Of a stretch of DNA of 39,340 bases, positions 11,672 to 39,340 are shown one piece after another (positions within the stretch are counted from its first letter, which is position 1; each line of letters begins with the position of its first letter). Source of the DNA: Lutibacter sp. HS1-25 (GTDB lineage: Bacteria > Bacteroidota > Bacteroidia > Flavobacteriales > Flavobacteriaceae). The DNA is taken from contig NZ_RHLN01000025.1 in NCBI RefSeq assembly GCF_004121075.1, positions 1-39,340 on the forward strand, written 5' to 3'. The position numbers and the translations under genes were made by a program. The notes under the pieces were generated by a model. The model did not search any database. It had not been told where the DNA came from and was given only the letters and a program-made list of their open reading frames with translations.

Positions 11672-14600
11672 ATGAACGAAGGAATATCAGGTAAAATAGC
11701 CAGTGCCTTTATCAATTCTAAGTTAACTGTTTTGTTAATGGTTGCTTTGATGATTATTGGTGTGTATAGTTCTTTTTTAATACCTAGAGAAGAAGAACCG
11801 CAAATTATTGTACCAATGGCCGATGTAATGGTTGGCTATCCGGGTGCGAGTCCGAAAGAAGTTGAAAACAGGGTTGTAAAACCTTTGGAAAAAATAATTT
11901 CGAACATTAAAGGTGTAGAACACGTTCACGCAATGGCAATGAACGGTCAGGCAATGATTATTGTGCAGTTTTATGTAGGTGAAGATACTGAAAACTCGTA
12001 CGTTAAATTGTACGACGAGTTGATGAAACACAGAGATCTATTTGTAAATGGCATTTATGAACCTTTGGTAAAAACACGCTCTATAGACGATGTGCCTATG
12101 CTGGGAATTACACTTTGGAGCGAAAATTACAATGATTTTGAGCTGAAACAAATTGCCGGTGAACTGGAAAATGAAGTTAAGAAAATTAAAGATGTTTCTA
12201 TTACAAAAACAATTGGTGGAAGAAATCGTGTGCTAAAAATTAATCTTGACAAAGCAAAAATGGCCGAAAACGGGGTTGATGCTATTGAGATTATGCAAAT
12301 GATACAAGCCAACAACCAACAGATGCAAAGTGGTAGTTTTGTAAAAAACGACACTGAATTTTTAGTAACTACTGGTAATTTTTTAAAATCGGATGACGAT
12401 GTTAAAAATATTGTTGTTGGGGTAAATCAAAACTTACCTGTTTACCTAAAACAAGTAGCAAGTATAGAAGACGGACCTGCAACACCGGCAAATTACGTAT
12501 CGTTTGGTTATGGTCAAAACAATGAGAATTTTGCCAAAAATTCGTCTGAATATGCAGCAGTTACAGTATCGGTTGCAAAAGTAAAAGGTGCTGATGCTAT
12601 GAAAATTTCGGAAAAGATATTGACCAAAGTTGAAACATTGAAACAAAATTTGATTCCGGATGATGTACATGTTGAAATTAGCAGAAACTACGGCGAAACA
12701 GCGTCTCACAAAGTGGGCGAATTGTTATTGCACTTAGGTGTTGCCATTATTGCAGTAACACTTTTGGTAATGTTGGCTATGGGCTGGCGCGGTGGTTTGG
12801 TGGTATTTTTATCTGTTCCGCTTACATTTGCCCTGACTTTGTTTAGCTATTATATGCTAGATTATACCCTAAACCGTATTACATTATTTGCCTTGGTTTT
12901 TGTGGTTGGTATTGTGGTTGATGATAGTATTATTATTGCCGAAAATATGCACAGACACTTTAAAATGAAGCGTTTACCATTTAAACAAGCCGCTATATTT
13001 GCTATTAATGAAGTTGGAAACCCTACTATTTTAGCCACATTTACGGTAATTGCAGCTATTTTACCAATGGCGTTTGTATCGGGTATGATGGGACCTTATA
13101 TGAGTCCGATGCCAATTGGAGCTTCTATTGCTATGATGTTGTCTTTATTTATTGCTTTAACGGTAACGCCTTATTTAGGTTATCATTTATTGCGCGAAAA
13201 AGACAATGAAGAGCACAAAGAAGAGGAAGGTTTAGAAACCGGAATGATTTATAAATTTTACAAAAAAATAGAACAACCTTTATTAGACAATAAAAAGAAA
13301 CGTTGGGGATTTTTAGCCGTAACATTGGTTCTTTTAATAGGCTCTGTACTTTTATTTTTCACCAAAACGGTGGTTGTAAAAATGTTGCCTTTTGACAATA
13401 AAAATGAGTTTCAGATTGTGATAGATATGCCCGAAGGCACTACTTTAGAGCGAACTGCAATTGTTACAAAAGAAATTTCGCAGTATTTGGCTACCATACC
13501 AGAAGTGGTTAATTATCAAAATTATGTGGGTACCTCTGCTCCTATTACTTTTAACGGTTTGGTGCGTCATTACGATTTACGTGGTGGAAGTAATATGGCT
13601 GATATTCAGGTAAATTTATTGCACAAAGCCGATAGAGATTTACAAAGTCACGACATTGCTAAAATTGTGCGTCCTATGGTTCAAAAAATTGGTGCAAAAT
13701 ACGGTGCCAATATCAAAGTAGTTGAAGTTCCGCCAGGACCGCCAGTATTGTCTACCATTGTTGCTGAAATATACGGACCTGATTATGATGAACAAATTAA
13801 AATTGCGCATCAGGTAAAAGGCATTTTAGAAAACACAGATGATATTGTAGATATTGATTGGATGGTTGAAGCCGATCAAACAGAATACAAATTAGAAGTT
13901 GACAAAGAAAAAGCAATGTTAAATGGTATTGCACCTCAACAAGTTGTTGCAACGCTTACAAGCATTTTAAGAGAACACCCGGTGTCTGCTTTATACAACG
14001 AAACCGCCAATGAAAGCATTGGTATTGTATTGGCTTTAGAAGACAATGAAAAAAGTTCGTTAGATGCCATTCAAAATATCAAAATAAAATCGAGTCAAGG
14101 ATTTACAATTCCTATCAGTGATTTGGTTTCAATTAAAAAAGATACTTTGAAAAAAACCATTTACCGAAAAGATCAAAAAAGTGTGGTTTACATAACTGCA
14201 GATATGGCTGGTGCTTTGGAAAGTCCGGTATATGCAATTTTAGGAATGGAAGAAAAATTGCAAAATATAAAACTGCCAACTGGTTATAAAATTAACGAGT
14301 TGTATATGGAACAACCATCAGACGAGTCGGATTTTACCGTAAAATGGGATGGTGAATGGCAAATAACTTTGGAAGTTTTTAGAGACTTAGGAGCTGCCTT
14401 TTTAATTGTAATTGTTATTATTTATATGTTGATTGTTGGATGGTTTCAAAACTTTAAAACTCCAATTGTAATGATGGTTGCCATACCACTGTCGTTGATA
14501 GGAATTGTATTAGGACATTTAATTTTTGATGCATTTTTTACAGCAACATCTTTTATTGGAATGATTGCTTTGGCTGGGGTTATGGTTAGAAACTCGGTTT

Positions 14601-14863
14601 TAATAATTGATTTTATTGAAATTAGATTGAATGATGGCATTCCGTTAAAACAAGCTATTATTGATGCTGGAGCAGTAAGAACCACGCCAATTTTATTAAC
14701 AACAGGTGCGGTGGTAATTGGAGCATCTATCATATTGTTCGACCCAATTTTCCAAGGATTGGCAATCTCGTTAGTGGCTGGTGCAATTGTATCAACCGTA
14801 CTAACTTTAATTGTTGTGCCTTTACTTTATTATATGACTGAAAAACACAAATACGAAAAATAA
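11672..14863 (+). CDS. RND efflux pump inner-membrane permease
   Basis: A 1063-residue RND pump with the classic duplicated plan: membrane helix 1 (about 15-36), first large periplasmic loop (about 37-340), helices 2-6, a second large loop (about 565-880) and helices 8-12. The proton-relay pair is visible in helix 4 as VVGIVVDDSIIIAENMHRH (two adjacent Asp), which is HAE-like rather than the heavy-metal (HME) pattern. It therefore more likely exports organic compounds or toxic hydrophobic molecules than metal ions. ATG 11672 (MNEGISGKIA) is chosen as start because the frame upstream of it runs through the structured RNA. Confidence 0.93.
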   Translation: MNEGISGKIASAFINSKLTVLLMVALMIIGVYSSFLIPREEEPQIIVPMADVMVGYPGASPKEVENRVVKPLEKIISNIKGVEHVHAMAMNGQAMIIVQFYVGEDTENSYVKLYDELMKHRDLFVNGIYEPLVKTRSIDDVPMLGITLWSENYNDFELKQIAGELENEVKKIKDVSITKTIGGRNRVLKINLDKAKMAENGVDAIEIMQMIQANNQQMQSGSFVKNDTEFLVTTGNFLKSDDDVKNIVVGVNQNLPVYLKQVASIEDGPATPANYVSFGYGQNNENFAKNSSEYAAVTVSVAKVKGADAMKISEKILTKVETLKQNLIPDDVHVEISRNYGETASHKVGELLLHLGVAIIAVTLLVMLAMGWRGGLVVFLSVPLTFALTLFSYYMLDYTLNRITLFALVFVVGIVVDDSIIIAENMHRHFKMKRLPFKQAAIFAINEVGNPTILATFTVIAAILPMAFVSGMMGPYMSPMPIGASIAMMLSLFIALTVTPYLGYHLLREKDNEEHKEEEGLETGMIYKFYKKIEQPLLDNKKKRWGFLAVTLVLLIGSVLLFFTKTVVVKMLPFDNKNEFQIVIDMPEGTTLERTAIVTKEISQYLATIPEVVNYQNYVGTSAPITFNGLVRHYDLRGGSNMADIQVNLLHKADRDLQSHDIAKIVRPMVQKIGAKYGANIKVVEVPPGPPVLSTIVAEIYGPDYDEQIKIAHQVKGILENTDDIVDIDWMVEADQTEYKLEVDKEKAMLNGIAPQQVVATLTSILREHPVSALYNETANESIGIVLALEDNEKSSLDAIQNIKIKSSQGFTIPISDLVSIKKDTLKKTIYRKDQKSVVYITADMAGALESPVYAILGMEEKLQNIKLPTGYKINELYMEQPSDESDFTVKWDGEWQITLEVFRDLGAAFLIVIVIIYMLIVGWFQNFKTPIVMMVAIPLSLIGIVLGHLIFDAFFTATSFIGMIALAGVMVRNSVLIIDFIEIRLNDGIPLKQAIIDAGAVRTTPILLTTGAVVIGASIILFDPIFQGLAISLVAGAIVSTVLTLIVVPLLYYMTEKHKYEK

Positions 14864-27143: not shown

Positions 27144-27308
27144 ACTTATTTTTTATTTCTACTTTCTAATAAAATTATATTCAATGGAGACTTTGCCAAT
27201 GCACAGCGACTGATATTTTGAAAGGCGTTTAAAATTGTATGTTGATTGTTTGTTGTTTATACTTCTTTAAATTTAAGTATCAATTTTTTGAAGTGCTGTG
27301 TAACATTT

Positions 27309-27608
27309 TTATTCAGATATTCTTTTACTTAAATCCATTTTCTCATGAAGAATTCTTGTAATTTCCACATAATTTTCATTTAGAGTTCTATAAAATATTA
27401 TGTGGCGATTGGTTTTCATTCCTAACAGACTTTCAGCAATACCCTCATAGCTTTTTCCTAAAACTGGATTATTTGCAATATCTTGACAAGCTGAAATCAA
27501 TATCTCATAATATTTATCGGCTTGATGCTCAGACCAAACATCAAAAGTATAATCCCAAATTTTAGATAAATCCTCAACCGCTTTTTTGGTCAATTTAAAT
27601 TTAGCCAT
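27309..27608 (-). CDS. parE: ParE/RelE-superfamily toxin
   Basis: A 99-residue protein of the ParE toxin family (PF05016): LTKKAVEDLSKIWDYTFDVW (about 6-25), QADKYYEILISACQDIANNP (about 29-48), then a beta-hairpin region around GMKTNRHIIFYRTLNEN and ITRILHEKMDLSKR near the end. ParE members poison DNA gyrase; RelE cousins cut mRNA, but the RelE catalytic triad is absent here and ParE fits better. Its start overlaps the end of the upstream parD gene by 8 bp, the usual coupling that keeps antitoxin in excess. Confidence 0.9.
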   Translation of the reverse strand: MAKFKLTKKAVEDLSKIWDYTFDVWSEHQADKYYEILISACQDIANNPVLGKSYEGIAESLLGMKTNRHIIFYRTLNENYVEITRILHEKMDLSKRISE

Positions 27609-27852
27609 TTGGGTGCTTTTTTGCTTTTAGAGCTTCAAGATGTTTTTTTGGGTCAAAATCTTCAGCAATACCGCTATCAATTCCATCCTGAATGGCATTT
27701 TTCAATGCAATTACTTTACATTCTTCTTCCTCTAAAAGTCTTAATCCTGCACGTATAACTTCGCTAACATTTTTAAATCGTCCTTCTCTTATTCGACTTT
27801 GAATGAATTCATCAAAATAATTTCCAAGTGATATTGATGTGTTTTTATTCAT
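27601..27852 (-). CDS. parD: ParD-family antitoxin
   Basis: An 83-residue antitoxin. Residues 1-45 form a ribbon-helix-helix DNA-binding domain (NTSISLGNYFDEFIQSRIRE then FKNVSEVIRAGLRLLEEEE), and the acidic/helical C-terminal part (about 46-83) wraps the toxin. ATG 27852 (MNKNTS) is chosen: it gives the standard ParD N-terminus, and an upstream in-frame ATG would lie inside the operator and promoter. The pair is autoregulated through the palindrome at 27872-27894. Confidence 0.9.
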   Translation of the reverse strand: MNKNTSISLGNYFDEFIQSRIREGRFKNVSEVIRAGLRLLEEEECKVIALKNAIQDGIDSGIAEDFDPKKHLEALKAKKHPNG

Positions 27853-27869
27853 TTTGATAACATTTAAAT

Positions 27870-27901
27870 CAAATATACCAATAATTGGTATATTATCCAA
27901 A
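27870..27901 (-). promoter_or_regulatory. parDE promoter (TTTG-N20-TATATTTG)
   Basis: On the minus strand TTTG (27901-27898) is followed after 20 bp by TATATTTG (27877-27870), an exact match to the Bacteroidetes -33/-7 consensus. The -7 box ends 17 bp before the parD ATG, so the leader is short. Confidence 0.7.
27872..27894. promoter_or_regulatory. parD operator: 11-bp perfect inverted repeat
   Basis: AATATACCAAT, one spacer base, ATTGGTATATT. The palindrome fills the spacer and half of the -7 box of the parDE promoter, the expected place for a ribbon-helix-helix repressor to block transcription. Confidence 0.75.
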
Positions 27902-27974
27902 TTCACAAATTTTCACAACATTCATTAAACTTATTTTTTATTCATTTATTCTTTCATATTAAAATACAAATAGT

Positions 27975-27989: not shown

Positions 27990-29174
27990 ATGAAAAACAC
28001 TACAAAACTCCCTTCGCTTTTATTAAAAAAGGTTACACACCGTAATCAGGTACAATTGTTATTGGTATTTTATTACAGCAATTATTTAAAAGATAAAATA
28101 AAATCTATTGGCGGTTATAGCTGGAGCAAAACTTTAAGAGGCTGGTACACTCCTTTTTCAGCAGAAAATATTCAAATTATTAAAGATGTTTTAAAAGATG
28201 ATGTTCGATTTCAAATAGATGCTTCAATTTACAAAGATGCTGCTTTAAAACCTATTCGACAAGAAAGAGTAATTTCCGAAGAAAATAAAGAAATTATAAG
28301 GTTATATGTTAAATATTTAAAAGGCAAATGTTATAGCGAAAGTACCGTAAAAACATACTTTACCTTTATTGCAGATTTTTTTGATTATTTAAAAGACACG
28401 CCTCTTGAAACCGTTACAAACCGTACTGTTGAAAAATTTATTGAAGATGTTTTTATACCAAGAAAGTACAGTGTTAGCAGTCACAGACAATTTATAAGTG
28501 CTGTTAAATTATTTTCGGCATTTTATCCTGAATGTAAAATTGAAGAAATAAAATTACAACGTCCAAAAAAAGATAAAATATTACCCACTGTTTTAAGTAA
28601 AGAAGAAATAATTGATTTGCTTAGATGTACTAAAAACCTAAAACACAGAGCAATACTAGCTATGATTTACAGTGCTGGTTTACGCATTAGTGAGTTGCTT
28701 AATTTAAAATTAAGACATATAGACATAGATCGCAGACAAATTATTGTTAAAAACAGCAAAGGTCGAAGAGATCGCAATATTATTTTAGCCGAAAGTTTTA
28801 TTCCGTTATTATTAAATTATTTAAACAGTTTTAACCCACAGGTATATTTTGTTGAAGGCAGTTTGGGCGATAAATATAGTGCTGAAAGTATTCGTGGCTT
28901 TTTAAAACGATCTTGCACATTTGCACAAATAAATAAAAGGGTTACACCACATACTTTACGACACAGTTACGCTACTCATTTACTAGAAAATGGTATAGAT
29001 TTACGTTATATTCAAGAACTTTTAGGGCACGCAAAACCCGAAACAACGATGATTTACACCCACGTAAGTAAAAAAGATTTATTAAATATTAAAAGTCCGT
29101 TAGATATTGCGTTAAAAAGCTTGGTAAATCCTAATGAAAACAACCCTATTCACAGACTATCGGGTAATTATTAA
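27990..29174 (+). CDS. Tyrosine recombinase with extra N-terminal domain and IntI-like C-terminal tail
   Basis: A 394-residue site-specific recombinase. Residues about 15-90 form an added N-terminal domain (HRNQVQLLLVFYYSNYLKDK, GGYSWSKTLRGWYTP) seen in a group of Bacteroidetes integrases. About 95-185 is the SAM-like core-binding domain, and 200-375 the catalytic domain. All catalytic residues are present: Arg232 (AGLRISELL), Lys257, His321 and Arg324 (PHTLRHSYATHLL), His347 (LLGHAKPETT) and Tyr356 (MIYTHV). The end, TTMIYTHV...IKSPLD, recalls integron integrases, but the roughly 20-residue IntI-specific insertion before HTLRH is missing. It may act on the attC-like array 7 kb downstream, but no site abuts the gene. 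Confidence 0.9.
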   Translation: MKNTTKLPSLLLKKVTHRNQVQLLLVFYYSNYLKDKIKSIGGYSWSKTLRGWYTPFSAENIQIIKDVLKDDVRFQIDASIYKDAALKPIRQERVISEENKEIIRLYVKYLKGKCYSESTVKTYFTFIADFFDYLKDTPLETVTNRTVEKFIEDVFIPRKYSVSSHRQFISAVKLFSAFYPECKIEEIKLQRPKKDKILPTVLSKEEIIDLLRCTKNLKHRAILAMIYSAGLRISELLNLKLRHIDIDRRQIIVKNSKGRRDRNIILAESFIPLLLNYLNSFNPQVYFVEGSLGDKYSAESIRGFLKRSCTFAQINKRVTPHTLRHSYATHLLENGIDLRYIQELLGHAKPETTMIYTHVSKKDLLNIKSPLDIALKSLVNPNENNPIHRLSGNY

Positions 29175-29322
29175 ACTGCTGTTAAACTGCTGATTTATTT
29201 ATTTTTACAAAAAAAACAGCTTAAAAGTTTAAATTTATTTTTAATTAAAAAAATAATTTACACTTTCAATTTAAATGTAAAATTTTCACTAAATTGTGCG
29301 TTTAAAATTGGCCAAGCTAGCA

Positions 29323-31383
29323 ATGAAAAACCGTTTTTTAACCCTATTCTTATTCCTAATTACTTTAATTGGTAATTTAAGTGCGCAATACCAAGTGCAG
29401 TTTAGCAACAATTACCCACCCTACAATTATATAAATGAGGAAGGTGAGTTGGTTGGTTTTAATATAGATATTTTAAAAGCCATTAATAATTTATATGATG
29501 ACAAGTCTATAAAAATAAATGCGGGAGATTGGCAAGCTATAAATAAGGCATTAGATAGTGGTTATGTTCAAGCAATTGGAGGCTATCAATACAATGGAAA
29601 TGGAGATGAGAAATTTTATTATTCACGATCTGCAATAAATACTTCTCACAGTTTTTTTTACAATTCAAAAAATCAAAATCAATTTTCATTAGAACATTTT
29701 AGAATTGCCAAAGAACCTTTGGTTGCTATTTGGAAAAACGATGTGCTTTTACATTATGTATTATCTATCAATCCTACTGCTAAATTTATATATGTAAAAG
29801 ATTACAAAGAATTTGTAAAAGCATTGGACAGAAAAGATGTAATGTGCAGTTTTGGACAACGTATTTCTGGTATGTATTATGCCTTAAAATCTGAAAAAAA
29901 TTATATTAAAACACTTGATCACAGGATTTTAGAACGCAATATGGGATTTAAGGTTTCTAAAAACAATCCTGAATTGGCTAAAATTTTAAACAATGGTTTG
30001 GAAGTAATTTTGGCAAATGGCACTTATCAAAAAATTTATGATCAATGGATTCTTGAATACGATCAACCGCAATTTAGCTGGCATAATTATTTAAAATACA
30101 TACTAATAGTAGCACTATTATTTATTTTTCTTATAATTTTAAATTGGATTTTACAAATACGGGTTCGTAAAAAAACAAAAGATTTACAACACCAAATTGA
30201 GGTAAATGCTGATATTATGCAAGAGCTTGAAATTCAGAAATACAAAGCTGAAGAAAGCGACAGAATGAAATCGGCTTTTTTAGCCAATATGAGCCATGAA
30301 ATAAGAACACCTATGAATGGTATTTTAGGCTTTACTGAATTATTAAAAAGCACTGAATATTCTTCAGAAAAACAAACACAATTTATCAATATTATTCAGC
30401 AAAGTGGTAACAGAATGTTAAATACCATTAACAATATAATTGATATTTCAAAGTTAGAATCGGGGCTAGAAAGCGTTCATATTAAAGCTGTAAATGTACC
30501 TATAATTGTAAATGAATTGGTCGCATTTTTTAATAATGAAGCCGTTTCAAAAGGATTGATTTTTAAATCATCTCAAATAAATTCAGAGGTAAATATTCCT
30601 TTTTATACAGATGAATATAAGTTAAATTCTATTTTAACAAATTTAATTAAAAACGCTTTAAAATTTACAAAAAAAGGCTCAATTGAAATACGCTATACCA
30701 TTAATTTAGAACACGTTGAGTTTTGGATAAAGGATACAGGAATAGGTATTCCTTTAGACAAACAAGCTACTATATTTAATGAATTTATACAGGCCGACAA
30801 CTCTCATTCAAGTGGTTATGAAGGTTCAGGTTTAGGATTGTCTATTTCAAAAGGCTATGTACATTTATTAAAAGGTATTATAGAATTTGAATCTACACAA
30901 AATATTGGAACCACATTTTACGTTCGTATCCCTAACTCATCAAATAAAGTAACACAAACAGCAGCAACACAAAAAATCACTACAACTACTCCAAATTTTA
31001 TACCTACAAACTTTAAAATTATAATTGCTGAAGATGATGTAATTACTTTTTACTTTTTAAAAGAAATTTTAAAAGATGTATCTGAATGTTTATACCATGC
31101 AAAAAATGGTTTTGAAGCCGTTGAACTAATGAAAGCACATCCAGAAGTAGATCTTATTTTAATGGATGTTAAAATGCCGCTTTTAAATGGTTTTGAAGCA
31201 ACACAACAAATTAGAACCTTTAATAAAGATGTTTATATTATTGCACAAACAGCATTTGTACAAGAAAGTTATAAAAGAAAAATAATTGAAGCTGGTTGCA
31301 ATACCTACATTTCAAAACCTATTAATCGTGAAAAATTATTTGATTTATTAAAAAAAATTACGGTTGAAACTGTTTTAGATTAA
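29323..31383 (+). CDS. Hybrid sensor histidine kinase with periplasmic SBP_bac_3 domain
   Basis: A 686-residue kinase. Signal peptide (1-22, ending NLSAQ), a periplasmic solute-binding-protein-type domain of the SBP_bac_3 family (about 24-242: FSNNYPPYNYINEEGELVGF is the family start), a membrane helix (about 253-274), a short coiled coil, HisKA with the phospho-His at 325 (FLANMSHEIRTPMNGILGF), HATPase (ILTNLIKNALKF, GSGLGLSISKG) and a receiver with phospho-Asp 615 (LILMDVKMPLLNGFEATQQ). It should sense an amino-acid-like or other small periplasmic ligand. It ends in a receiver with no DNA-binding output. ATG 29323 is chosen over GTG 29296, which would precede the signal peptide by nine residues. 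Confidence 0.93.
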   Translation: MKNRFLTLFLFLITLIGNLSAQYQVQFSNNYPPYNYINEEGELVGFNIDILKAINNLYDDKSIKINAGDWQAINKALDSGYVQAIGGYQYNGNGDEKFYYSRSAINTSHSFFYNSKNQNQFSLEHFRIAKEPLVAIWKNDVLLHYVLSINPTAKFIYVKDYKEFVKALDRKDVMCSFGQRISGMYYALKSEKNYIKTLDHRILERNMGFKVSKNNPELAKILNNGLEVILANGTYQKIYDQWILEYDQPQFSWHNYLKYILIVALLFIFLIILNWILQIRVRKKTKDLQHQIEVNADIMQELEIQKYKAEESDRMKSAFLANMSHEIRTPMNGILGFTELLKSTEYSSEKQTQFINIIQQSGNRMLNTINNIIDISKLESGLESVHIKAVNVPIIVNELVAFFNNEAVSKGLIFKSSQINSEVNIPFYTDEYKLNSILTNLIKNALKFTKKGSIEIRYTINLEHVEFWIKDTGIGIPLDKQATIFNEFIQADNSHSSGYEGSGLGLSISKGYVHLLKGIIEFESTQNIGTTFYVRIPNSSNKVTQTAATQKITTTTPNFIPTNFKIIIAEDDVITFYFLKEILKDVSECLYHAKNGFEAVELMKAHPEVDLILMDVKMPLLNGFEATQQIRTFNKDVYIIAQTAFVQESYKRKIIEAGCNTYISKPINREKLFDLLKKITVETVLD

Positions 31384-31546
31384 TCTTTTAAAATAACTAT
31401 ATTTTTTTTGTCTTTAAAAATTGTTTAAATTGTGATTAAAATTATCACGAACATTTAAAAAAAAACATTTAACATTTAGATTTAAGCTAATTGTTAAAAC
31501 ATTAAAATACCAATGTTCAAAATATAATTAAGCTAAGAAAACCAAG

Positions 31547-34500
31547 ATGAAAAAGGATCAAATTAAAAGTAAAGAAGCTCTTTTAGCTGAAAACATTCAG
31601 CTAAAAAAGAAAATTTCAATATTAGAACAATCTGAACTAACAAGGTTCAATTGGCTACAAAAATCTCCTGTTTGCACAAAAATAGTTGATCTTGATTTTA
31701 ATTTGAAGTACATGAGTAATTCTGGAGTTAATGATCTTAAAATTAAAGACATTACCCTTTATTACGGCAAACCTTATCCTTTAGATTTTTACCCCGATAC
31801 ATACAAAATTACCATGTCTGATAATTTAAAAAGGGCAAAAAAAACTGGTGAAACCATAACACTTGAAGCCTCAATTAAAGATTTATTAGGCAATAATATT
31901 TGGTATAGTTCAACAATTATACCTGTTTATAATGATCTAAAAGAACTTGATTGCATTATGATAGTTTCATATAAAACTACCAATCAAAAACAATCAGAAG
32001 AAACTTTAAATAAATACAAACACATTGTATCCTATTCAACTGATATGCTTGCTTTTATAGACAAAGATTACAATTATGTCTCGGCAAATAATGAATATTT
32101 AAAGGCTTTTAATTTAAGTTCTGATAAGCTAATTGGAAAATCGGTTATTGAAGTTTTTGGTGAAAAGTTTTTTAAAACAGTACTAAAGCCATATGCAGAT
32201 CGCTGTTTAAAAGGTGAACAAATAAATTATCAAGAATGGTTTGAATTTGCAAAAATTGGCAAACAATACATAGATTTTACCTATTATCCATACCATACAA
32301 ACGACAATTTAATTAGTGGTTTTGTAATAAAAGGAAAAAACATTACAAATAGAAAAGAAGCTGAAAATGCATTGTTACAAAGTGAAGCCACTGTTAGAAA
32401 CAAACTAAAAGCCATTACCGATCCAAAAGGAGATATTAGTACGCTTGAACTTTCTGATATTATTGATGTTGATATATTGCAATCATTAATGGATGATTTT
32501 TATAAACTAACAGGTATGTTAGGTGCTGTGGTTGATTTATCAGGCAAAGTTTTGGTTGCTGTTGGATGGCAAGATGTTTGCACAAAATTTCATAGATGCA
32601 ATCCTAACTCCCTAAAAAACTGCATAGAAAGTGACACTATATTAACCAAAGGTGTACCTGAAGGAACTTTTAAAGCGTACCACTGCAAAAACAATATGTG
32701 GGACATTGTTACCCCTATTATGGTTAGTGGCAGACATATTGGAAATGTTTTTATGGGGCAATATTTTTTAAAAGACGAAATACCTGATTTGGCGTTTTTT
32801 AAAGAGCAAGCCAAAAAATTTGGGTTTGATGAAAAAGAATATTTAGCCGCTGTTGAACGTACGCCACGTTTTACCAAAGAAGAGGTAAATACAGGCATGA
32901 AATTTTACTCAAAACTTGCCGGAATTATTTCATCACTAAGTTTTAGTGCCATTCAACAATCTAGAATGATTTCTGAACAAAAAATAACAGAACAAGCACT
33001 TCACGAAAGTAAAGAAAGGTTTGAGTTGGCAATGAATGCTTCAACAGATGGTATTTATGACTGGAATCTTGTAACCAATGAAATTTATTATTCTCCGGGA
33101 TGGAAAAGTATGTTAGGTTATAAAGACCATGAGCTTCCAAATAATTTTTTGGTATGGCAAAAATTAACAGATCCAGATGATGCTGCAAAATCTTGGAAAA
33201 TGCAGCAAGAATTAATTAACAATCAACGTGATCGTTTTGAAATAGAATTTAAAATGAAACACAAAAACGGGCATTGGGTTGATATTCTTTCTCGCGCAAA
33301 AATAGTTTTTGATGATCAGAAAAAAGCTATTAGAATGATTGGTACTCACGTAGATATTTCAGAAAGAAAGCATGAAGAAAAGATTTTAGATATTGAATTA
33401 AAATTATTTGAATACGCAATAAATCATTCAGAAGAAGAATTGCTTCAGAAAATTTTAGATGAAGCTGAATTACTTACAAACAGCAATATTGGTTTTTATC
33501 ATTATATAGATCCCAATCAAGAATCTATTTCACTTCAAACCTGGTCTACAAATACAATTCAAACTATGTGTAAACAGAATATTGAATCTAATACACATTA
33601 CCCTCTTTCACAAGCAGGTGTATGGTCTGATTGTATAAAAGAACGTAAACCAGTAATACATAACGATTATTTAAGTTTGTCTCATAAAAAAGGAATGCCT
33701 GAAGGTCATACACCTGTTACGCGTGAGTTGGTAGTACCTGTTATTAGAGCAAACCAAGTAGTTGCCGTACTTGGTGTTGGAAATAAAAAAACCGATTACA
33801 ACGAAATTGATATTAAAAGCGTTCAACGTTTGGCTGATATTGCCTGGGAAACTGCTGTTAGAAAACAAGTTGAAGAAAATCTTAAAAACACATTTGATTT
33901 ATCTCCTAGTATTATTTGTAAAGGAAACATTTTTACACAACACTTTATTGAAGCCAATAAAGCTGTAACACGAATTTTAGGTTATAGTGTTGAAGAATTT
34001 TTTTCAAGAAATTTTTTAGATTTTGTATACTTAGACGATAAGCGACGAACATTAAATGAAATGTTTAAACTTAGAGCAGGTGAAGAAATTACTTTTTTTG
34101 AAAATAGATGTATATGCAAAGATGGTACTTATAAATGGATGTCTTGGCATGCTACAAAAGCTGATAAAAATGGAATTGTAACTTTAGTAGGATCTGATAT
34201 TAGTGAGCGTAAAATAATAGAACATGAAATTATAAAAACCAAACATTTTTACGAAAACATAATTGAAGGTGTACAAGATGGTATTTGGGTAACCGATAAA
34301 AACGATGTTATTTTTTACGCAAACAAAGCTACTGAAAGAATTGCAGGCGTTTCAATAGATTTAATTAAAGGAAAAAACATATTAAACGATTTTCCTTTAG
34401 AAACTACAGGAGATTTAATTGAATTTTATCAACAAGCAAAAAAAGAAAAAAAACCAGTTTGGTACGATATTAAAATTAACACACTATCACATAAAGATAC

Positions 34501-36121
34501 CTGGCAAAACGGTTGGCTTATACCACAATACAGACATAAAAAATTTACAGGAATTATTTGTACAATTCGTGATATTACCCAAAGAAGACAAGCCGAAAGT
34601 GTTGTTAGAAAACTTTCTACAGCAGTACAACAAAGTCCGTCTACAATAACCATTACAAACACAGAAAAAATAATAGAATATGTAAATCCGAAATTTACAG
34701 AATTAACAGGCTATACAAGTTCTGACGCTATAGGTAAAGAGCTAACTATTTTAGAATCAGGAAAACAAGATGCAAATTTTTACAAAAAAATGTGGGAAAC
34801 AGTCGCATCTGAAAATGTTTGGAGAGGTCAATTTAAAAACAAAAAGAAAAATGGAGAAATATTTTGGGAAGCAGCATCCATCTCGGCAATTTTAAATGAA
34901 TCGGGTAACATAATTAATTACATTAAAATAGGTGAAGATATTACCGCCCAAAAACATACAGAAGCAAAACTAAAAATTGCGCTTGAAAAAGCATTAGAAA
35001 GTGACAGACTTAAAAGTGCATTTTTGGCAAATATGAGCCATGAAATAAGAACACCAATGAATGGTATCTTAGGATTTATAAATTTACTTAACGAACCAAA
35101 TTTAAGCAACTCTCAAATTGAAAAATACACCACAATTATAAATAAAAGTGGAGACAGACTATTAAAAACCATTAATGATATAATTGATATATCAAAAATT
35201 GAAGCTGGAGAAATAGTTGTATCAAGTACCGAAACCTGTATAAATACAGAATTTGAAGAACTATATTCATTCTTTTTACCTGAAGCAAATCAAAAAGGAG
35301 TATCGCTATTTTTAGATCCACCAAAATCTAAAGAACCCTTAAAAATAATAACAGATAGTCACAAACTTCATGGAATATTAATTAACCTTATAAAAAATGC
35401 CATTAAATTTACTGATGAAGGTTCTGTAACATTTGGTTTTAATTTAAGAGAAAATGCTATTGAATTTTATGTAAAAGATACAGGTATTGGCATACCTAAA
35501 GACAGAATTAATGCAATATTTAATCGTTTTGAACAAGCAGATATTGATGATAAAAGAGTATTTGAAGGATCGGGATTAGGACTGGCCATTTCAAAAGCAT
35601 ATATTGAAATGTTAGGCGGTAAAATATACGTAGAATCTGAAGAAGGAAAAGGATCTACATTTAAATTTACAATTCCTTATTTAAAAGACGAAAAAAATGA
35701 AATAAAAGAAACATTTGAAACTATAGAAAACGAAAACATAAGTACAAAAAATTTGAATTTACTTATAGTTGAAGATGATGAAATAAGCGCCGTATTTTTA
35801 GAAACTATACTAAAAAACGATTTTCGAAAAATATTTTTTGCTGAAAACGGAATAGAAGCCATTGAATTATGTAAAAACATACCTGATATTGATTTGGTAT
35901 TAATGGATATTAATATGCCCAAAATGAATGGTTACAATGCTACAAAAGAGATAAGAAAATTTAACAAAGACATTGTTATTATAGCACAAACAGCCTATGT
36001 TATGTCTGGTGATGAGCAAAAAGCCATTGAAGCAGGATGTAACGATTATATATCAAAACCAATAAACCGTAAAAAATTAATTAATTTATTAAAAAAAACA
36101 AAAAACAAATATTCACTTTAA
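31547..36121 (+). CDS. Soluble multi-PAS/PocR/GAF hybrid histidine kinase
   Basis: A 1524-residue cytoplasmic kinase without membrane helices. Order: coiled coil (1-30), PAS (about 35-148), PAS (about 157-272), PocR sensory domain (about 300-465: DIIDVDILQSLMDDFYKLTG, CNPNSLKNC), PAS (about 482-610), GAF (about 628-783), three more PAS (about 790-905, 912-1030, 1035-1152), HisKA with phospho-His 1165, HATPase (about 1275-1388) and receiver with phospho-Asp 1454 (LVLMDINMPKMNG). PocR domains bind small hydrocarbons or similar ligands in other proteins; PAS and GAF can add haem, flavin or cyclic-nucleotide sensing. The kinase-receiver end closely resembles the preceding kinase, so the two are related. 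No DNA-binding output. Confidence 0.93.
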   Translation: MKKDQIKSKEALLAENIQLKKKISILEQSELTRFNWLQKSPVCTKIVDLDFNLKYMSNSGVNDLKIKDITLYYGKPYPLDFYPDTYKITMSDNLKRAKKTGETITLEASIKDLLGNNIWYSSTIIPVYNDLKELDCIMIVSYKTTNQKQSEETLNKYKHIVSYSTDMLAFIDKDYNYVSANNEYLKAFNLSSDKLIGKSVIEVFGEKFFKTVLKPYADRCLKGEQINYQEWFEFAKIGKQYIDFTYYPYHTNDNLISGFVIKGKNITNRKEAENALLQSEATVRNKLKAITDPKGDISTLELSDIIDVDILQSLMDDFYKLTGMLGAVVDLSGKVLVAVGWQDVCTKFHRCNPNSLKNCIESDTILTKGVPEGTFKAYHCKNNMWDIVTPIMVSGRHIGNVFMGQYFLKDEIPDLAFFKEQAKKFGFDEKEYLAAVERTPRFTKEEVNTGMKFYSKLAGIISSLSFSAIQQSRMISEQKITEQALHESKERFELAMNASTDGIYDWNLVTNEIYYSPGWKSMLGYKDHELPNNFLVWQKLTDPDDAAKSWKMQQELINNQRDRFEIEFKMKHKNGHWVDILSRAKIVFDDQKKAIRMIGTHVDISERKHEEKILDIELKLFEYAINHSEEELLQKILDEAELLTNSNIGFYHYIDPNQESISLQTWSTNTIQTMCKQNIESNTHYPLSQAGVWSDCIKERKPVIHNDYLSLSHKKGMPEGHTPVTRELVVPVIRANQVVAVLGVGNKKTDYNEIDIKSVQRLADIAWETAVRKQVEENLKNTFDLSPSIICKGNIFTQHFIEANKAVTRILGYSVEEFFSRNFLDFVYLDDKRRTLNEMFKLRAGEEITFFENRCICKDGTYKWMSWHATKADKNGIVTLVGSDISERKIIEHEIIKTKHFYENIIEGVQDGIWVTDKNDVIFYANKATERIAGVSIDLIKGKNILNDFPLETTGDLIEFYQQAKKEKKPVWYDIKINTLSHKDTWQNGWLIPQYRHKKFTGIICTIRDITQRRQAESVVRKLSTAVQQSPSTITITNTEKIIEYVNPKFTELTGYTSSDAIGKELTILESGKQDANFYKKMWETVASENVWRGQFKNKKKNGEIFWEAASISAILNESGNIINYIKIGEDITAQKHTEAKLKIALEKALESDRLKSAFLANMSHEIRTPMNGILGFINLLNEPNLSNSQIEKYTTIINKSGDRLLKTINDIIDISKIEAGEIVVSSTETCINTEFEELYSFFLPEANQKGVSLFLDPPKSKEPLKIITDSHKLHGILINLIKNAIKFTDEGSVTFGFNLRENAIEFYVKDTGIGIPKDRINAIFNRFEQADIDDKRVFEGSGLGLAISKAYIEMLGGKIYVESEEGKGSTFKFTIPYLKDEKNEIKETFETIENENISTKNLNLLIVEDDEISAVFLETILKNDFRKIFFAENGIEAIELCKNIPDIDLVLMDINMPKMNGYNATKEIRKFNKDIVIIAQTAYVMSGDEQKAIEAGCNDYISKPINRKKLINLLKKTKNKYSL

Positions 36122-36209
36122 AATTAAAAAATTAAGTATCTATTTCTTTTGTAGTTACACTTAAATTTTTAAATTCGTAATAAATAAAAAGCTATTAAAA
36201 ACCATCCAC

Positions 36210-36278
36210 ACTAAACTGATAAAATTGAACAAACATACGTTTATCCGGAAAATATTACCTATAAACAGTTGGTTTAGT
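36210..36278. repeat. Dyad at the left edge of the cassette array (possible attC/attI remnant)
   Basis: ACTAAACTG (36210-36218) and CAGTTGGTTTAGT (36266-36278) are inverted copies apart from two extra G. The dyad lies just before the first cassette's GTTAGCACAC. It could be part of a degenerate attC or an attI-like entry site; there is no clear ...AAC partner box on its left. Confidence 0.3.
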
Positions 36279-36318
36279 TTGGATATAACAAGTTAGCACA
36301 CATAAAAAAACCGGAAAA

Positions 36319-37068
36319 ATGAGAATATATTTAATCATATTAATTTTAATTTCGACTATCGATTTATTCGGACAAAATAAAGAAACAAAACCCATTGAAC
36401 TTTCTGAAATAAAATTATGCGAATTAACATTATCTGAATTAAAGCAACAAGATGAAAACTTAAAAGAAGTTGAGTTAATTGAAATGGATTTATGTTCTGA
36501 TGGCTTTGTACAAGATGCAAGATATGAGAATAGAAAAGGTTATATATCAAAATATTACAAAGGAATAATATTTCAAAAAGATAATTACACTGAATTGATT
36601 TCTAAAATCAGATTAACAAAAGAGTTTAAAGGAAAATTACCCGACGGAAATTATATTGACCTTTCAAATTTAACAGCAGAGAATGTTCTTGAAAAATATC
36701 CTAAATTGAACACTTGGAACTCAAGAGGTTGTTCAGATTATTGGAGTTTGACTGATGAGCACTTTTATTTCTACGTAGGTATTGAGCAGGAAAAAGAACC
36801 TCGATATCCATTGGATGAAAAATACTATTTAACAAAGCCAATTGAGGGAATTGATATTATTACAAATTGTTCAGAATACACACAAAAAAATAAAATAAAA
36901 CAAGAACCTTTAATTATTCTAAACGGAAAAGAAGTTAGTAAGTCTGAAATTGAGAAATACAACCCTGAAGATATTGAATCTGTGACAGTTTTGAAAGAAA
37001 GTGCAGTTGAAAAATATGGAGAGAAAGGAAAAAACGGAGTGATAATAATTAAAACAAAATCCGAATAA
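36319..37068 (+). CDS. Secreted protein with C-terminal TonB-plug-like motif (cassette 1)
   Basis: A 249-residue protein with a signal peptide (MRIYLIILILISTIDLFGQ). The middle (20-195) is not recognised; it contains four Cys (about 34, 59, 138, 184) that could form disulfides. The last 55 residues, IILNGKEVSKSEIEKYNPED then ESVTVLKESAVEKYG and GKNGVIIIKTK, match the short plug-domain-like tail (TonB_plug / carboxypeptidase-regulated type) that Bacteroidetes attach to M56 peptidases and secreted proteins. It is the only gene in its segment, starting 27 bp after GTTAGCACAC (36292) and ending 4 bp before the closing attC-like site, the tight packing normal for integron cassettes. Confidence 0.8.
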   Translation: MRIYLIILILISTIDLFGQNKETKPIELSEIKLCELTLSELKQQDENLKEVELIEMDLCSDGFVQDARYENRKGYISKYYKGIIFQKDNYTELISKIRLTKEFKGKLPDGNYIDLSNLTAENVLEKYPKLNTWNSRGCSDYWSLTDEHFYFYVGIEQEKEPRYPLDEKYYLTKPIEGIDIITNCSEYTQKNKIKQEPLIILNGKEVSKSEIEKYNPEDIESVTVLKESAVEKYGEKGKNGVIIIKTKSE

Positions 37069-37072
37069 AAAC

Positions 37073-37207
37073 GTGTGCTAACACCTCATATAATTTATGC
37101 TTACATTCGAACTAACATTAACGACAAACATTCAACAAACGATTTGCTACGGCAGAAAAATCTCCGATTTTCCAGTCGCACAAATCATATAAAAACTCGT
37201 TGGCTAA
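37073..37207 (+). repeat. attC-like site 1 (135 bp)
   Basis: Starts GTGTGCTAAC and ends CGTTGGCTAA. Outer arms CTCATATAATTTATGC and GCACAAATCATATAAAAACTCG are imperfect complements, and a nested hairpin GATTTG...AAAAATC / GATTTTC...CAAATC occupies the right half. It is homologous over its full length to the sites at 37639 and 39190, but its variable boxes differ from theirs. Confidence 0.65.
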
Positions 37208-37638
37208 AATAGCTCGGATGAATTTTTTCCGGTCAGAAATAAAACAGATAAAATTGAGTTTAATAAAATAGATTTATAAGATAAAAACAGTCGGAGAATT
37301 GATTCTATTTAAAATTCAATAAAATGAGAAAATTGATTTTTTTTTTAATTAGTTCAATGACAAATTAAATAAAAATGATAAATTTGAGTTCACTTCTACT
37401 CTACCGATTTTGAGAGCTGAAACGTAAAAAACTTAATGAAACGGAGAAATTTAAAATCAGAGCGGATTTGAGCATCGAATCGGATTTTTTAGCATTGAAA
37501 CGGAGAATAATTGCAGAACGCTAAAAACAAGTAAAAAGATAAATTAATAACAAAAAAGATAAGGATTTTTATAAAAAACAAGAATGACAAATCTCGGAAA
37601 GTACTAAAATTCAATTATCAGCATAGCGTGTCGCTAAA
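37208..37638 (+). pseudogene. Cassette 2: no intact gene, possibly a decayed coding segment
   Basis: About 430 bp with no frame above 60 codons. An ATG at 37324 opens MRKLIFFLISSM, which looks like the beginning of a signal peptide, then stops after 14 codons. Phrases such as GACAAATCTCGG recur in the tandem-repeat segment 38829-39110. A worn-out cassette is the simplest reading. Confidence 0.35.
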
Positions 37639-37772
37639 TTAGCCAACAACTCATAAAATTTATGCTTAAATTTGATTTAGTACAAACGACAAACATTCAA
37701 CAAACAATTTGCTACGTCCGAAAAATCTCCGATTTTCCAGTCGCACAAATCTTATAAAAGCCCGTTGCAAAA
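37639..37772 (+). repeat. attC-like site 2 (134 bp)
   Basis: Starts TTAGCCAAC and ends CCGTTGCAAAA. The core from AACTCATAAAATTTATGC to GCACAAATCTTATAAAAGCCCG is near-identical to site 5, and the middle (TCCGATTTTCCAGTCGCACA) is identical to site 1. TTAGCCAAC is the exact reverse complement of GTTGGCTAA at the start of the segment it closes. Confidence 0.65.
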
Positions 37773-37862
37773 CATATTAGCGGAGGAGTTTGTCGTAATA
37801 ATGTTCCGTAATATGCCTTTTTATTTTTTTCCCTTGCCTTGTAACACTTAAAAATTGTAAAT

Positions 37863-38276
37863 ATGAATAAGCATCAGCAATTAGATTTAATTCTTAAATA
37901 TATGTCTGAAAATCTTGATTCAATACCAAGAAGACCAGATTCTATAATTAGACGTGCTAAATTGAATATTGATAATACAGAATCATATAGAATGTTTATA
38001 AAAATGTTATCAGACGGTTATGTTTATGAGCATATAAATGATAATAAAAAAACATTAACTTTCGGAATATCATATAATGGAATTATCTTTTTAGCTGATG
38101 GAGGTTATTCATCATATTATAGTAAAAATAAATTAAAAAATTTAGCATTAAAAATATCGAATATAACAGACATTATAATTAAACCTATTGGTGTTTTTAC
38201 TGCTATATTGATTAGTGCTTGGTATATTGTCAAGTTGCTTGAATTTTTCGGGATAATTAAGTCTTGCGTAAATTAA
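37863..38276 (+). CDS. Winged-helix-like small membrane protein of unknown function (cassette 3)
   Basis: A 137-residue protein. Residues 1-75 look like a small helix-turn-helix or winged-helix domain (HQQLDLILKYMSENL, then YRMFIKMLSDGYVYEHI and a beta-like KTLTFGISYNGIIFLADGGY). Residues 100-135 contain one long or two short hydrophobic helices (IIIKPIGVFTAILISAWYIV), so the domain is tethered to the membrane. No family recognised. It lies alone in the segment that starts at GTTGCAAAA (37764) and is closed by site 3. An opposing frame overlaps its 3' end; this one is preferred because it has the full-length domain pattern. Confidence 0.6.
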   Translation: MNKHQQLDLILKYMSENLDSIPRRPDSIIRRAKLNIDNTESYRMFIKMLSDGYVYEHINDNKKTLTFGISYNGIIFLADGGYSSYYSKNKLKNLALKISNITDIIIKPIGVFTAILISAWYIVKLLEFFGIIKSCVN

Positions 38277-38399
38277 AATTGATATAATAATTATTATAGA
38301 TATCCATAATACACTACCTAAAAAAAACATTACGTAATTTATTAATTTATCATAAAATAAGGCTTTTTCATATTCTGATTTATAAAATATATTTTCCAT
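38148..38399 (-). CDS. Possible antisense small membrane protein (cassette 3)
   Basis: An 83-residue frame with one strong hydrophobic helix (about 21-45, FFLGSVLWISIIIIISILIY) flanked by charged residues. Its first 41 codons lie outside the plus-strand gene and look protein-like; the last 43 codons are antisense to that gene. Integron-type cassettes sometimes carry minus-strand genes, but a low-complexity AT-rich accident is equally possible. Confidence 0.3.
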   Translation of the reverse strand: MENIFYKSEYEKALFYDKLINYVMFFLGSVLWISIIIIISILIYARLNYPEKFKQLDNIPSTNQYSSKNTNRFNYNVCYIRYF

Positions 38400-38477
38400 C
38401 GTTTCTAAATCTTTATTATAAAACGAGAGTAATATTTTTAAACCGCCAACTATTTGTTTTCTTTTGGCTTACCAGCC

Positions 38478-38558
38478 ATTTGCCAACGCTCAAAAAAAAT
38501 AAAAACTGTGGTCTTTGTCTTGGATTCAGTTTTCGAGCTTCCCTAATACGTTAGGCAA
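38478..38558 (+). repeat. attC-like site 3 (81 bp, unrelated sequence)
   Basis: Begins ATTTGCCAACGCTC and ends GAGCTTCCCTAATACGTTAGGCAA. Arms pair as AACG/CGTT, GCTC/GAGC and AAAACTG/CAGTTTT, with asymmetric internal loops and an 18-nt loop. Its right box GTTAGGC fits the integron consensus GTTRRRY exactly. Sequence is not homologous to sites 1, 2 and 5. Confidence 0.5.
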
Positions 38559-38621
38559 CTGTTAGCATATAAAAAATTACTTCTCTATTGTTAATACTAT
38601 ATTATTTTTCTTTAAATTTAC

Positions 38622-38687
38622 TTCCGTAACGCCTGAAAAGAAGTGTTTATTTACACGTAACTTTTCATATACACGCCGTTAGGTAAC
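38622..38687 (+). repeat. attC-like site 4 (66 bp, unrelated sequence)
   Basis: Begins TTCCGTAACG and ends CGCCGTTAGGTAAC. Arms pair as TAACG/CGTTA, GAAAAG/CTTTTC and GTGT/ACAC, with asymmetric internal loops and a 6-nt loop. The right box GTTAGGT fits GTTRRRY and is the exact complement of ACCTAAC at the start of site 5. The 128-bp segment between sites 3 and 4 has no gene. Confidence 0.5.
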
Positions 38688-38828
38688 ATGCCATCGGAAT
38701 TCTCTCTGAATTCCTTATTTTGAGTTATTTAATTAAAAATCATTTAATTGTATGAGAAATTACACAAAAAGCTCATTGAAATAAATAGAATTGAGCAACG
38801 AATTCTATAAATGTTTAAGATAAAATAA

Positions 38829-39110
38829 CAAATTTCAGATTTAAAAATGGCGGAGTTTGAGCGTTGGAATTTGAATGTTGGAATACTTAAGATTTCAGAA
38901 AAATATAAACTAAAAAGAGAAATCTCGGATTTTAAAATTATGGCGGAGTTTGAGCGTTGAAATCTATATGTTGGAATACTTAAGATTTCAGAAAAATATA
39001 GTTAAAATGACAAATCTCGGATTTTAAAATTATGGCGGAGTTTGAGCGTTGGAATTTGAATGTTGGAATATTTAAGATTTCAGAAAAATTCAACTAAAAT
39101 GAGAAATCGT
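38829..39110 (+). repeat. Tandem repeat, three units of 92-93 bp (cassette 5)
   Basis: Units can be anchored on ATGGCGGAGTTTGAGCGT at 38847, 38940 and 39032, with shared stretches AAATCTCGGATTTTAAAA and AAGATTTCAGAAAAAT. Each unit holds a short frame (MAEFERWNLNVGILKISEK...), the first reading through into the second for 37 codons before a TGA. Apart from this, the 500-bp segment 38688-39189 shows no gene. Units diverge by several bases, so the duplication is not recent. Confidence 0.8.
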
Positions 39111-39189
39111 CAAATTTGACAATTATGTAAAATGAGGTTTTGATACGTAGAAATTTAGGTCAGAAAGATTAATCCGAACTCAAAAGCAC

Positions 39190-39325
39190 GTTACCTAACA
39201 ACTCATAAAATTTATGCTATAATTCGAACTAATAGAAAATTTAAAATATTAAACAAACAATTTGCTACGGCTGAAAATTATCGTATTTTTAAACCGCACA
39301 AATCTTATAAAAGCCCGTTAGCAAA
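39190..39325 (+). repeat. attC-like site 5 (136 bp)
   Basis: Starts GTTACCTAAC and ends CCCGTTAGCAAAA. Arms AACTCATAAAATTTATGC and GCACAAATCTTATAAAAGCCCG match site 2; the centre is more diverged. Left box ACCTAAC fits RYYYAAC exactly. A further segment begins here and leaves the window. Confidence 0.65.
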
Positions 39326-39340
39326 AATAGCTCGACTGAG

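Follow-up and report, generated by a model that had tools for sequence, protein, structure and literature searches.

An integron-like cassette array with a candidate non-IntI recombinase in Lutibacter sp. HS1-25

The last 3 kb of contig C25 of Lutibacter sp. HS1-25 hold direct repeats of about 122 nt. We analysed this complete contig (39,340 bases, "the window"; the genome comprises 4.18 Mb in 164 contigs), and we read the repeats as the attC-like sites of an integron-like system that works with a recombinase other than IntI, the window holding the proximal end of a sedentary array (probability roughly 0.86). Positions 36292-39340 contain cassettes 1 to 4 of an array that is larger and continues past the contig end. 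Comparison with related loci brings out the cassettes as units, their breakpoints, covarying arms, an asymmetry between the strands and a linkage of recombinase, attI-like primary site and array. The linked recombinase is probably the catalyst and its substrate would be single-stranded, with conserved G·T wobbles, and perhaps also an N-terminal domain of the protein, taking the place of the bulged bases and the I2 helix of IntI. The original prediction had proposed an integron-type array at this place, and that reading is borne out by tandem cassettes with their own 3' sites, complementary ends, breakpoints at GTT, an attI-like start and open reading frames (ORFs) that mostly run one way. What has to be amended is the kind of integron, since the system departs from the canonical one in having no IntI insertion, an R box reduced to GTTR and G·T wobbles.

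Cassettes, their ends and their exchange

A window site queried against its own genome gave 44 matches on 14 contigs, some of them partial, and 13 of the 44 fall on contig C148, where many near-identical sites stand amid N runs and broken cassettes; this contig looks misassembled and is likely an assembly artefact. C148 is included in the set of 313 cassettes used below, with its internal pairs left out of the homologous-cassette pairs, and is excluded from the reduced end count of 277 and from the ORF-direction, arm-pair and folding counts. Within the genus, the site occurs in 37 of the 38 genomes searched, and it was met, marginally, in 2 of 62 other genomes; the complete genome G012 carries 64 sites within 97 kb, and G024 carries 53 within 62 kb. 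A finder built on the L arms of the site, which scores out of 16 and gives credit for bottom-strand wobbles, returned 408 forward sites from array-bearing loci totalling 1.68 Mb, and 11 when this DNA was shuffled once. Because of this excess and the 44 matches in its own genome, the window array is not a product of chance, and the cassette array is real.

The cassettes are arranged in tandem, each ending in its own 3' site. They open with GTT-N7 and as a rule close with N7'-AAC, where N7' is complementary to N7. When sites are located from the L arm only, 6-7 of the 7 end pairs form in 242 of 313 cassettes, and in about 8 when partners are shuffled; without C148, the locus L121 and repeated ends, at least 6 of 7 pair in 229 of 277. 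A first test on a hand-made list of 27 neighbouring sites, from which incomplete sites and C148 repeats had been omitted, gave for its 23 unique neighbour pairs a mean complementary run beyond GTT/AAC of 4.0 bases, compared with 1.75 for shuffled partners; none of 10,000 shuffles reached the observed mean, and the run lengths are two-peaked, at 0-3 or 6-7. A detector that uses the ends only picked out + strand chains of at least three cassettes in 32 of 134 loci, with 402 shuffles yielding 3; the chains of locus L165 look like chance. In the 248 cassettes with matched ends, the longest ORF runs forward in 207 and in reverse in 6, while 35 lack one of 60 aa; the ATG lies a median of 30 nt from the GTT. 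The elements of the window are as follows.

27990..29174, + strand: tyrosine recombinase P0001, 394 aa, proposed cassette integrase, from domain and profile matches and linkage to the attI-like motif in relatives
36214..36294, + strand: attI-like primary site, conserved TTATCCGGAAA ... ATATAACnAGTT, with the proposed insertion point in the GTT at 36292-36294; sole + strand motif match in the window, consensus of 69 sequences
36292..37201, + strand: cassette 1 including its 3' site; 10 of 10 bases pair between start GTTAGCACAC and end GTGTGCTAAC
36319..37068, + strand: ORF of cassette 1, 249 aa; C-terminal part SusC/RagA-like, below cut-off; no Pfam match
37080..37201, + strand: attC-like site 1, from the repeat and L-arm match
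37199..37766, + strand: cassette 2 with its 3' site, no ORF of 60 aa; three homologues elsewhere, own site 92-98% identical
37645..37766, + strand: attC-like site 2, from the repeat and L-arm match
37764..38680, + strand: cassette 3, ends not complementary
37863..38276, + strand: ORF of cassette 3, 137 aa; no family above cut-off
38485..38552, + strand: short dyad of 68 nt, unsupported as a site; L-arm score 11.4, R arms without match
38557..38680, + strand: attC-like site 3; L-arm score 14.8, wobbles at the conserved places
38678..39319, + strand: cassette 4, no ORF of 60 aa, 92-nt tandem repeats; ends (38678 to 39199) complementary at 10 of 10 bases; homologue on contig C70, own site 97% identical
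39197..39319, + strand: attC-like site 4; the contig ends 21 bases beyond, inside the array

The array start had been placed at 36292, and indeed GTTAGCACAC at this position pairs with GTGTGCTAAC at 37073-37082 over 10 bases; the boxes GTTAGGC, GTTAGGT and ACCTAAC that had been pointed out are likewise present. Four of the five direct-oriented AAC...GTT dyads first described are supported as sites, with L-arm scores of 14.4-14.8, and the fifth (38485-38552) drops out for want of a sufficient L-arm score and a matching R arm. Each segment had been described as holding one gene at most; an ORF is listed for cassettes 1 and 3, and cassettes 2 and 4 have no ORF of at least 60 aa. The ends of cassette 2 form six pairs beyond GTT, followed by a mismatch, and cassette 3 may be decayed or composite. 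A VanW-like match of its ORF (21.5 bits against a cut-off of 365) was not believed.

Exchange of cassettes was assessed on 35 homologous pairs, 14 of them between genomes (47 pairs were listed, 12 of which involved L121, which is the same contig as one of G024, and were removed). The cassette's own 3' site is 87-100% identical in 32 of the 35 pairs and the site upstream is less than 60% identical in 21, with both conditions holding in 19; in the 32 pairs measured, the downstream 150 bp are 18-57% identical. Window cassettes 2 and 4 are among these homologues. At the attI-like site, 39 locus pairs, which are not independent of each other, share 34-40 of 40 bases before the GTT and 9-25 of 40 after it, and 54 different heptamers follow the GTT across 63 loci. 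Since identity drops at the GTT of both kinds of site, the breakpoints lie at or within this triplet, and we infer recombination from this pattern of cassette exchange, in which comparison resolves a G/TT breakpoint to the GTT triplet. Breakpoints away from GTT and a fixed order of neighbours, either of which would have spoken against the original prediction, were looked for between species, as distinct from strains of one species, and neither occurred.

Miniature inverted-repeat transposable element (MITE)-like dispersed repeats, with neighbours reshuffled by homologous recombination, could also produce abundant sites that are often 88-100% identical within one genome, as a transposase could copy such a repeat family. 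This explanation, already disfavoured, is at odds with neighbours that change at GTT between sites less than 60% identical in 21 of 35 pairs, with the complementarity of the cassette ends and with the head-to-tail order downstream of one attI, and we give it hardly any credence.

The attI-like site and the linked recombinase

The attI-like motif is a conserved stretch of about 80 nt that ends in ATATAACnAGTT. In 63 of the 74 loci that are long enough, it is found no more than 400 bp from the 3' end of the recombinase gene (counted from where the match to P0001-like genes ends on that side), and visual inspection suggests that it frequently overlaps the gene's final codons; the same motif was found in none of the 74 loci in an upstream control, which was shorter in some of them. 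The attI-like site thus stands beside the proposed integrase gene in most related loci, while 7.1 kb separate the two in the window, where the only forward match to the motif marks the array start. Of the named related loci, which are the best 80 of 247, 40 had at least 3 kb of downstream sequence, and 39 of these hold a site; the 40 loci together contain 156 forward sites downstream, 9 reverse, 8 upstream and 2 in shuffled sequence. The recombinase gene is oriented toward the array. The motif TAnnTTTG, which we take to be the Bacteroidetes -7 promoter element, occurs in 32 of 69 attI-like sites, compared with about 2 in shuffles, and is imperfect in that of the window; the attI-like site may carry a promoter for the first cassettes.

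P0001 consists of an extra N-terminal domain (residues ~1-95) followed by SAM-like core-binding and catalytic domains, with Tyr356 as the catalytic tyrosine. It lacks the IntI-specific additional domain (patch/I2) and scores 192 bits with TIGR02249, against a cut-off of 265. All 6 IntI proteins compared from the phylum have a stretch of about 40 residues that all 8 members compared from this recombinase family lack, and 44 of 44 aligned recombinase rows have 57-58 residues across the region of the IntI insertion. In sequence, P0001 is closest to archaeal XerA, and among solved structures archaeal Xer proteins come nearest to it; with the NCBIfam XerA model NF040815, the window protein (212.6) stays below the cut-off of 220, which one of five relatives passes (224.2). 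Fold matches of the whole model cover residues 96-367 only, and residues 1-94, modelled apart with a mean predicted local distance difference test score (pLDDT) of 86.8, gave no clear fold match; the predicted domain faintly resembles domains of UvsW, XPB and SMARCAL1 that meet branched or distorted DNA. In a tree of 41 recombinases, IntI forms one clade (100/100) on a long branch, and the array-associated recombinases fall on one side of a branch in just 66% of bootstraps, a support too low to order their origins.

With no IntI beside the array and integron-like GTT/AAC boxes, one could suspect an ordinary cluster of attC sites lacking an integron integrase (CALIN), either a relic of a canonical IntI located at another place in the cell or in the population, or mobilised by it in trans. 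Some genomes of the genus do have sites without a linked recombinase, and a passage of PMC9892861 describes how IntI1 recombined, under laboratory conditions, a site from a Polaribacter phage that carries both sites of the present type and short canonical-looking ones. Set against this, attI and array are linked to recombinases of a different family, which is present in 80 of 299 Flavobacteriaceae genomes, and no IntI was found over the TIGR02249 cut-off either in this genome or in the 299 (the controls of the latter search matched nowhere), while the model finds IntI in 105 of 395 genomes of the phylum. The predicted absence of an adjacent IntI therefore stands for this genome, with the addition that a recombinase of the array-associated family lies 7.1 kb upstream, at 27990-29174. 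We consider such a cluster highly improbable and favour an integron-like system with its own, non-IntI recombinase.

Site structure and the marked strand

Across genera, the site has the common form AAC-acc-GTATATAATTTATTGC-variable-GCAACAAATCATATAC-aaacac-GTT. Its arms covary: the outer L arms differ (GTATAT, GTGTAT, GGCTAT, GTGCAT, GTACAT) and their partners match. In 50 unique sites picked by their R arms only, with fixed offsets and no L-arm filter, the 800 L-arm cells comprise 571 Watson-Crick pairs, 110 bottom-strand G·T and 11 A·C, and positions 7 and 12 are G·T in 36 and 38 of the 50 sites. Conversely, in 277 pairs picked by their L arms only, G·T accounts for 380 and A·C for 55 of 3601 R-arm cells, with position 8 being G·T in 222 pairs. 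Departures from pairing are mostly G·T and not A·C, and it is therefore chiefly the bottom strand that can form G·T. When 243 circle-junction sites, picked because their arms pair, were folded in silico, the bottom strand came out as the more stable in 239 (mean -22.5 compared with -17.6 kcal/mol). Most of the 50 sites pair their L arms without indels at a fixed 3/6 offset, and some need other offsets; it seems that strand choice rests on G·T wobbles instead of bulged bases. The R box has a purine at position 4 in 309 of 313 sites and departs from RRY at positions 5-7, keeping only GTTR of the consensus GTTRRRY.

These arms also bear on a Xer-like reaction on double-stranded sites, in which the inverted arms would be protein-binding sites and the hairpin incidental. 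The proximity of the recombinase to archaeal XerA in sequence and structure, and its lack of the insertion with which IntI is held to recombine single strands, would fit such a reaction. The arms vary, yet stay complementary within a cassette, which is not expected if a protein recognises duplex DNA, and their non-Watson-Crick pairs are mostly G·T on the bottom strand; we therefore regard duplex recombination as unlikely. Under the preferred reading of an integron-like system, a tyrosine recombinase of a mainly Flavobacteriaceae family would bind the bottom-strand hairpin of a cassette circle or an array site, with the G·T wobbles marking the strand, cut at the GTT/AAC core and join the ~122-nt attC-like site to the attI-like site. 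A cassette, consisting of a gene and its own 3' site, would thus move as a unit and be joined at the GTT of attI or of another site.

Several observations weigh against this integron-like reading. Upstream sites are at least 70% alike in 14 of the 35 homologous pairs, and 3 of the 35 do not share a similar own site. A good end match is absent in 71 of 313 cassettes, for which missed sites between neighbours are a likely explanation. Shuffled letters also lean to the bottom strand, in 186 of 243 cases and by 1.2 kcal/mol, so that the strand bias is partly a matter of base composition; moreover, the site finder credits bottom-strand wobbles, and Lutibacter-type sites without the cassette-end arms fold into an internal hairpin. 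In the window, two sensor-kinase genes lie in the 7.1 kb between recombinase and attI. Six of the 37 site-bearing genomes of the genus have no recombinase match at E 1e-60 (G005, G006, G016, G022, G027 and G033) and three more have a weak or broken match only (G003, G019 and G034), which a lost integrase or an incomplete assembly would explain. Seven loci outside the family show the attI motif in three cases, all from one genus, and a site in none, their flanks being short. Finally, the support for recombination comes from comparison throughout.

Known integrons, cargo and mobile elements

Canonical attC sites have R and L stems, an unpaired spacer, a variable terminal part and bulged L-stem bases, and class 1 integrons have a Pc promoter and an intI gene divergent from the array. 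With IntI integrons (class 1, Vibrio chromosomal and archaeal), the present system shares an attI that heads a one-way array, cassettes with their own 3' site, R and L stems with an unpaired spacer and variable terminal part, the AAC/GTT core, a predicted bottom-strand bias and some toxin-antitoxin and defence cargo. It differs in its recombinase, which has no IntI-specific insertion and an extra N-terminal domain and whose gene points toward the array, and in its sites, with arms of about 10 bp, the R box keeping GTTR only, and an L stem of 16 bp that has no bulges in most sites tested and is marked by conserved G·T wobbles. CALINs likewise present attC-like arrays in genomes without IntI, whereas here the arrays of relatives are linked to attI and to a recombinase that is not IntI. 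XerA/Xer proteins share the core-binding and catalytic domains, archaeal Xer proteins being the nearest solved structures, and differ in that the present recombinase has the extra N-terminal domain and a linked cassette array with attI.

According to a passage of PMC7790495, IntI gained single-strand recombination through the I2 helix, which is said there to be unique to IntI, and hairpin-type cassette sites together with a recombinase devoid of I2 offer a natural test of this view. It is tempting to go further and propose a second, independently evolved class of integron, in which a XerA-like recombinase without I2 recombines folded single strands through wobble-marked hairpins, perhaps read by the N-terminal domain, and which would be common in Flavobacteriaceae; we lean towards this proposal with some reserve. 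Such a class would have been overlooked because integron-integrase searches require an IntI domain, as passages of PMC2426708 and PMC9668308 indicate; as described there, these searches would report no integron integrase in Flavobacteriaceae for the same reason. Clusters of attC sites without an integrase are found by an attC model. Integrons have already been reported in Bacteroidota as a phylum (a passage of PMC8618304), and a passage of PMC9024848 names Salinibacter ruber M1 as the holder of the complete integron within Bacteroidetes. A literature search over titles, abstract openings and text passages, with preprints and most subscription papers outside its coverage, returned no description of the present system. 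If the reading is true, it places large gene-capture arrays in a major bacterial family, the Flavobacteriaceae.

Cargo was examined in 63 of 71 listed ORFs from G012, G032, this genome and the window, six insertion sequence (IS) copies and two duplicates being omitted. Among 25 of 42 families, Pfam gave a ParE toxin in four ORFs, AIPR in two, and YoeB, PemK, RES, Mrr, DndB and Schlafen domains in one ORF each; PADLOC gave AbiU in two ORFs and a type IV restriction enzyme in one. The G012 array (L215-L220) also contains ten IS481-like elements that are about 99% identical. All nine copies with an intact left end start 11-12 nt beyond a site's GTT, on its 3' side, as if the element targeted recombination sites; IS1111-attC elements are a parallel for insertion at attC sites.

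Sites of this type extend to plasmids and phages. The Persicobacter plasmid pPP2 (L237), from another order, the Cytophagales, carries eight tandem sites, and similar sites match on Tenacibaculum and Flagellimonas plasmids and on a Tenacibaculum phage. The lytic Polaribacter phage P12002L (L235) has high-scoring sites at 14503-14624, 32798-32924 and 39123-39244 and, read by eye, shorter canonical-looking attC sites near methyltransferase genes. Because the phage carries both types, we draw no conclusion on the type of the site recombined by IntI1.

An Rfam scan of 36000-39340 gave a single snoRNA match, attributed to chance, and nothing relevant. Within the ORF-less cassette 4, positions 38818-39094 consist of three 92-nt tandem units, with similar sequence on C148 and a homologous cassette on C70. 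The 7.1 kb between recombinase and attI-like site are taken up by two hybrid sensor kinase genes (29296-36121). Immediately upstream of the recombinase gene lies a reverse-strand half-site (27232-27295; 82% identical to bases 7-66 of the 122-nt query), and two overlapping reverse ORFs adjoining the recombinase (27309-27906) resemble, by eye, a putative RelE/ParE-type toxin-antitoxin pair.

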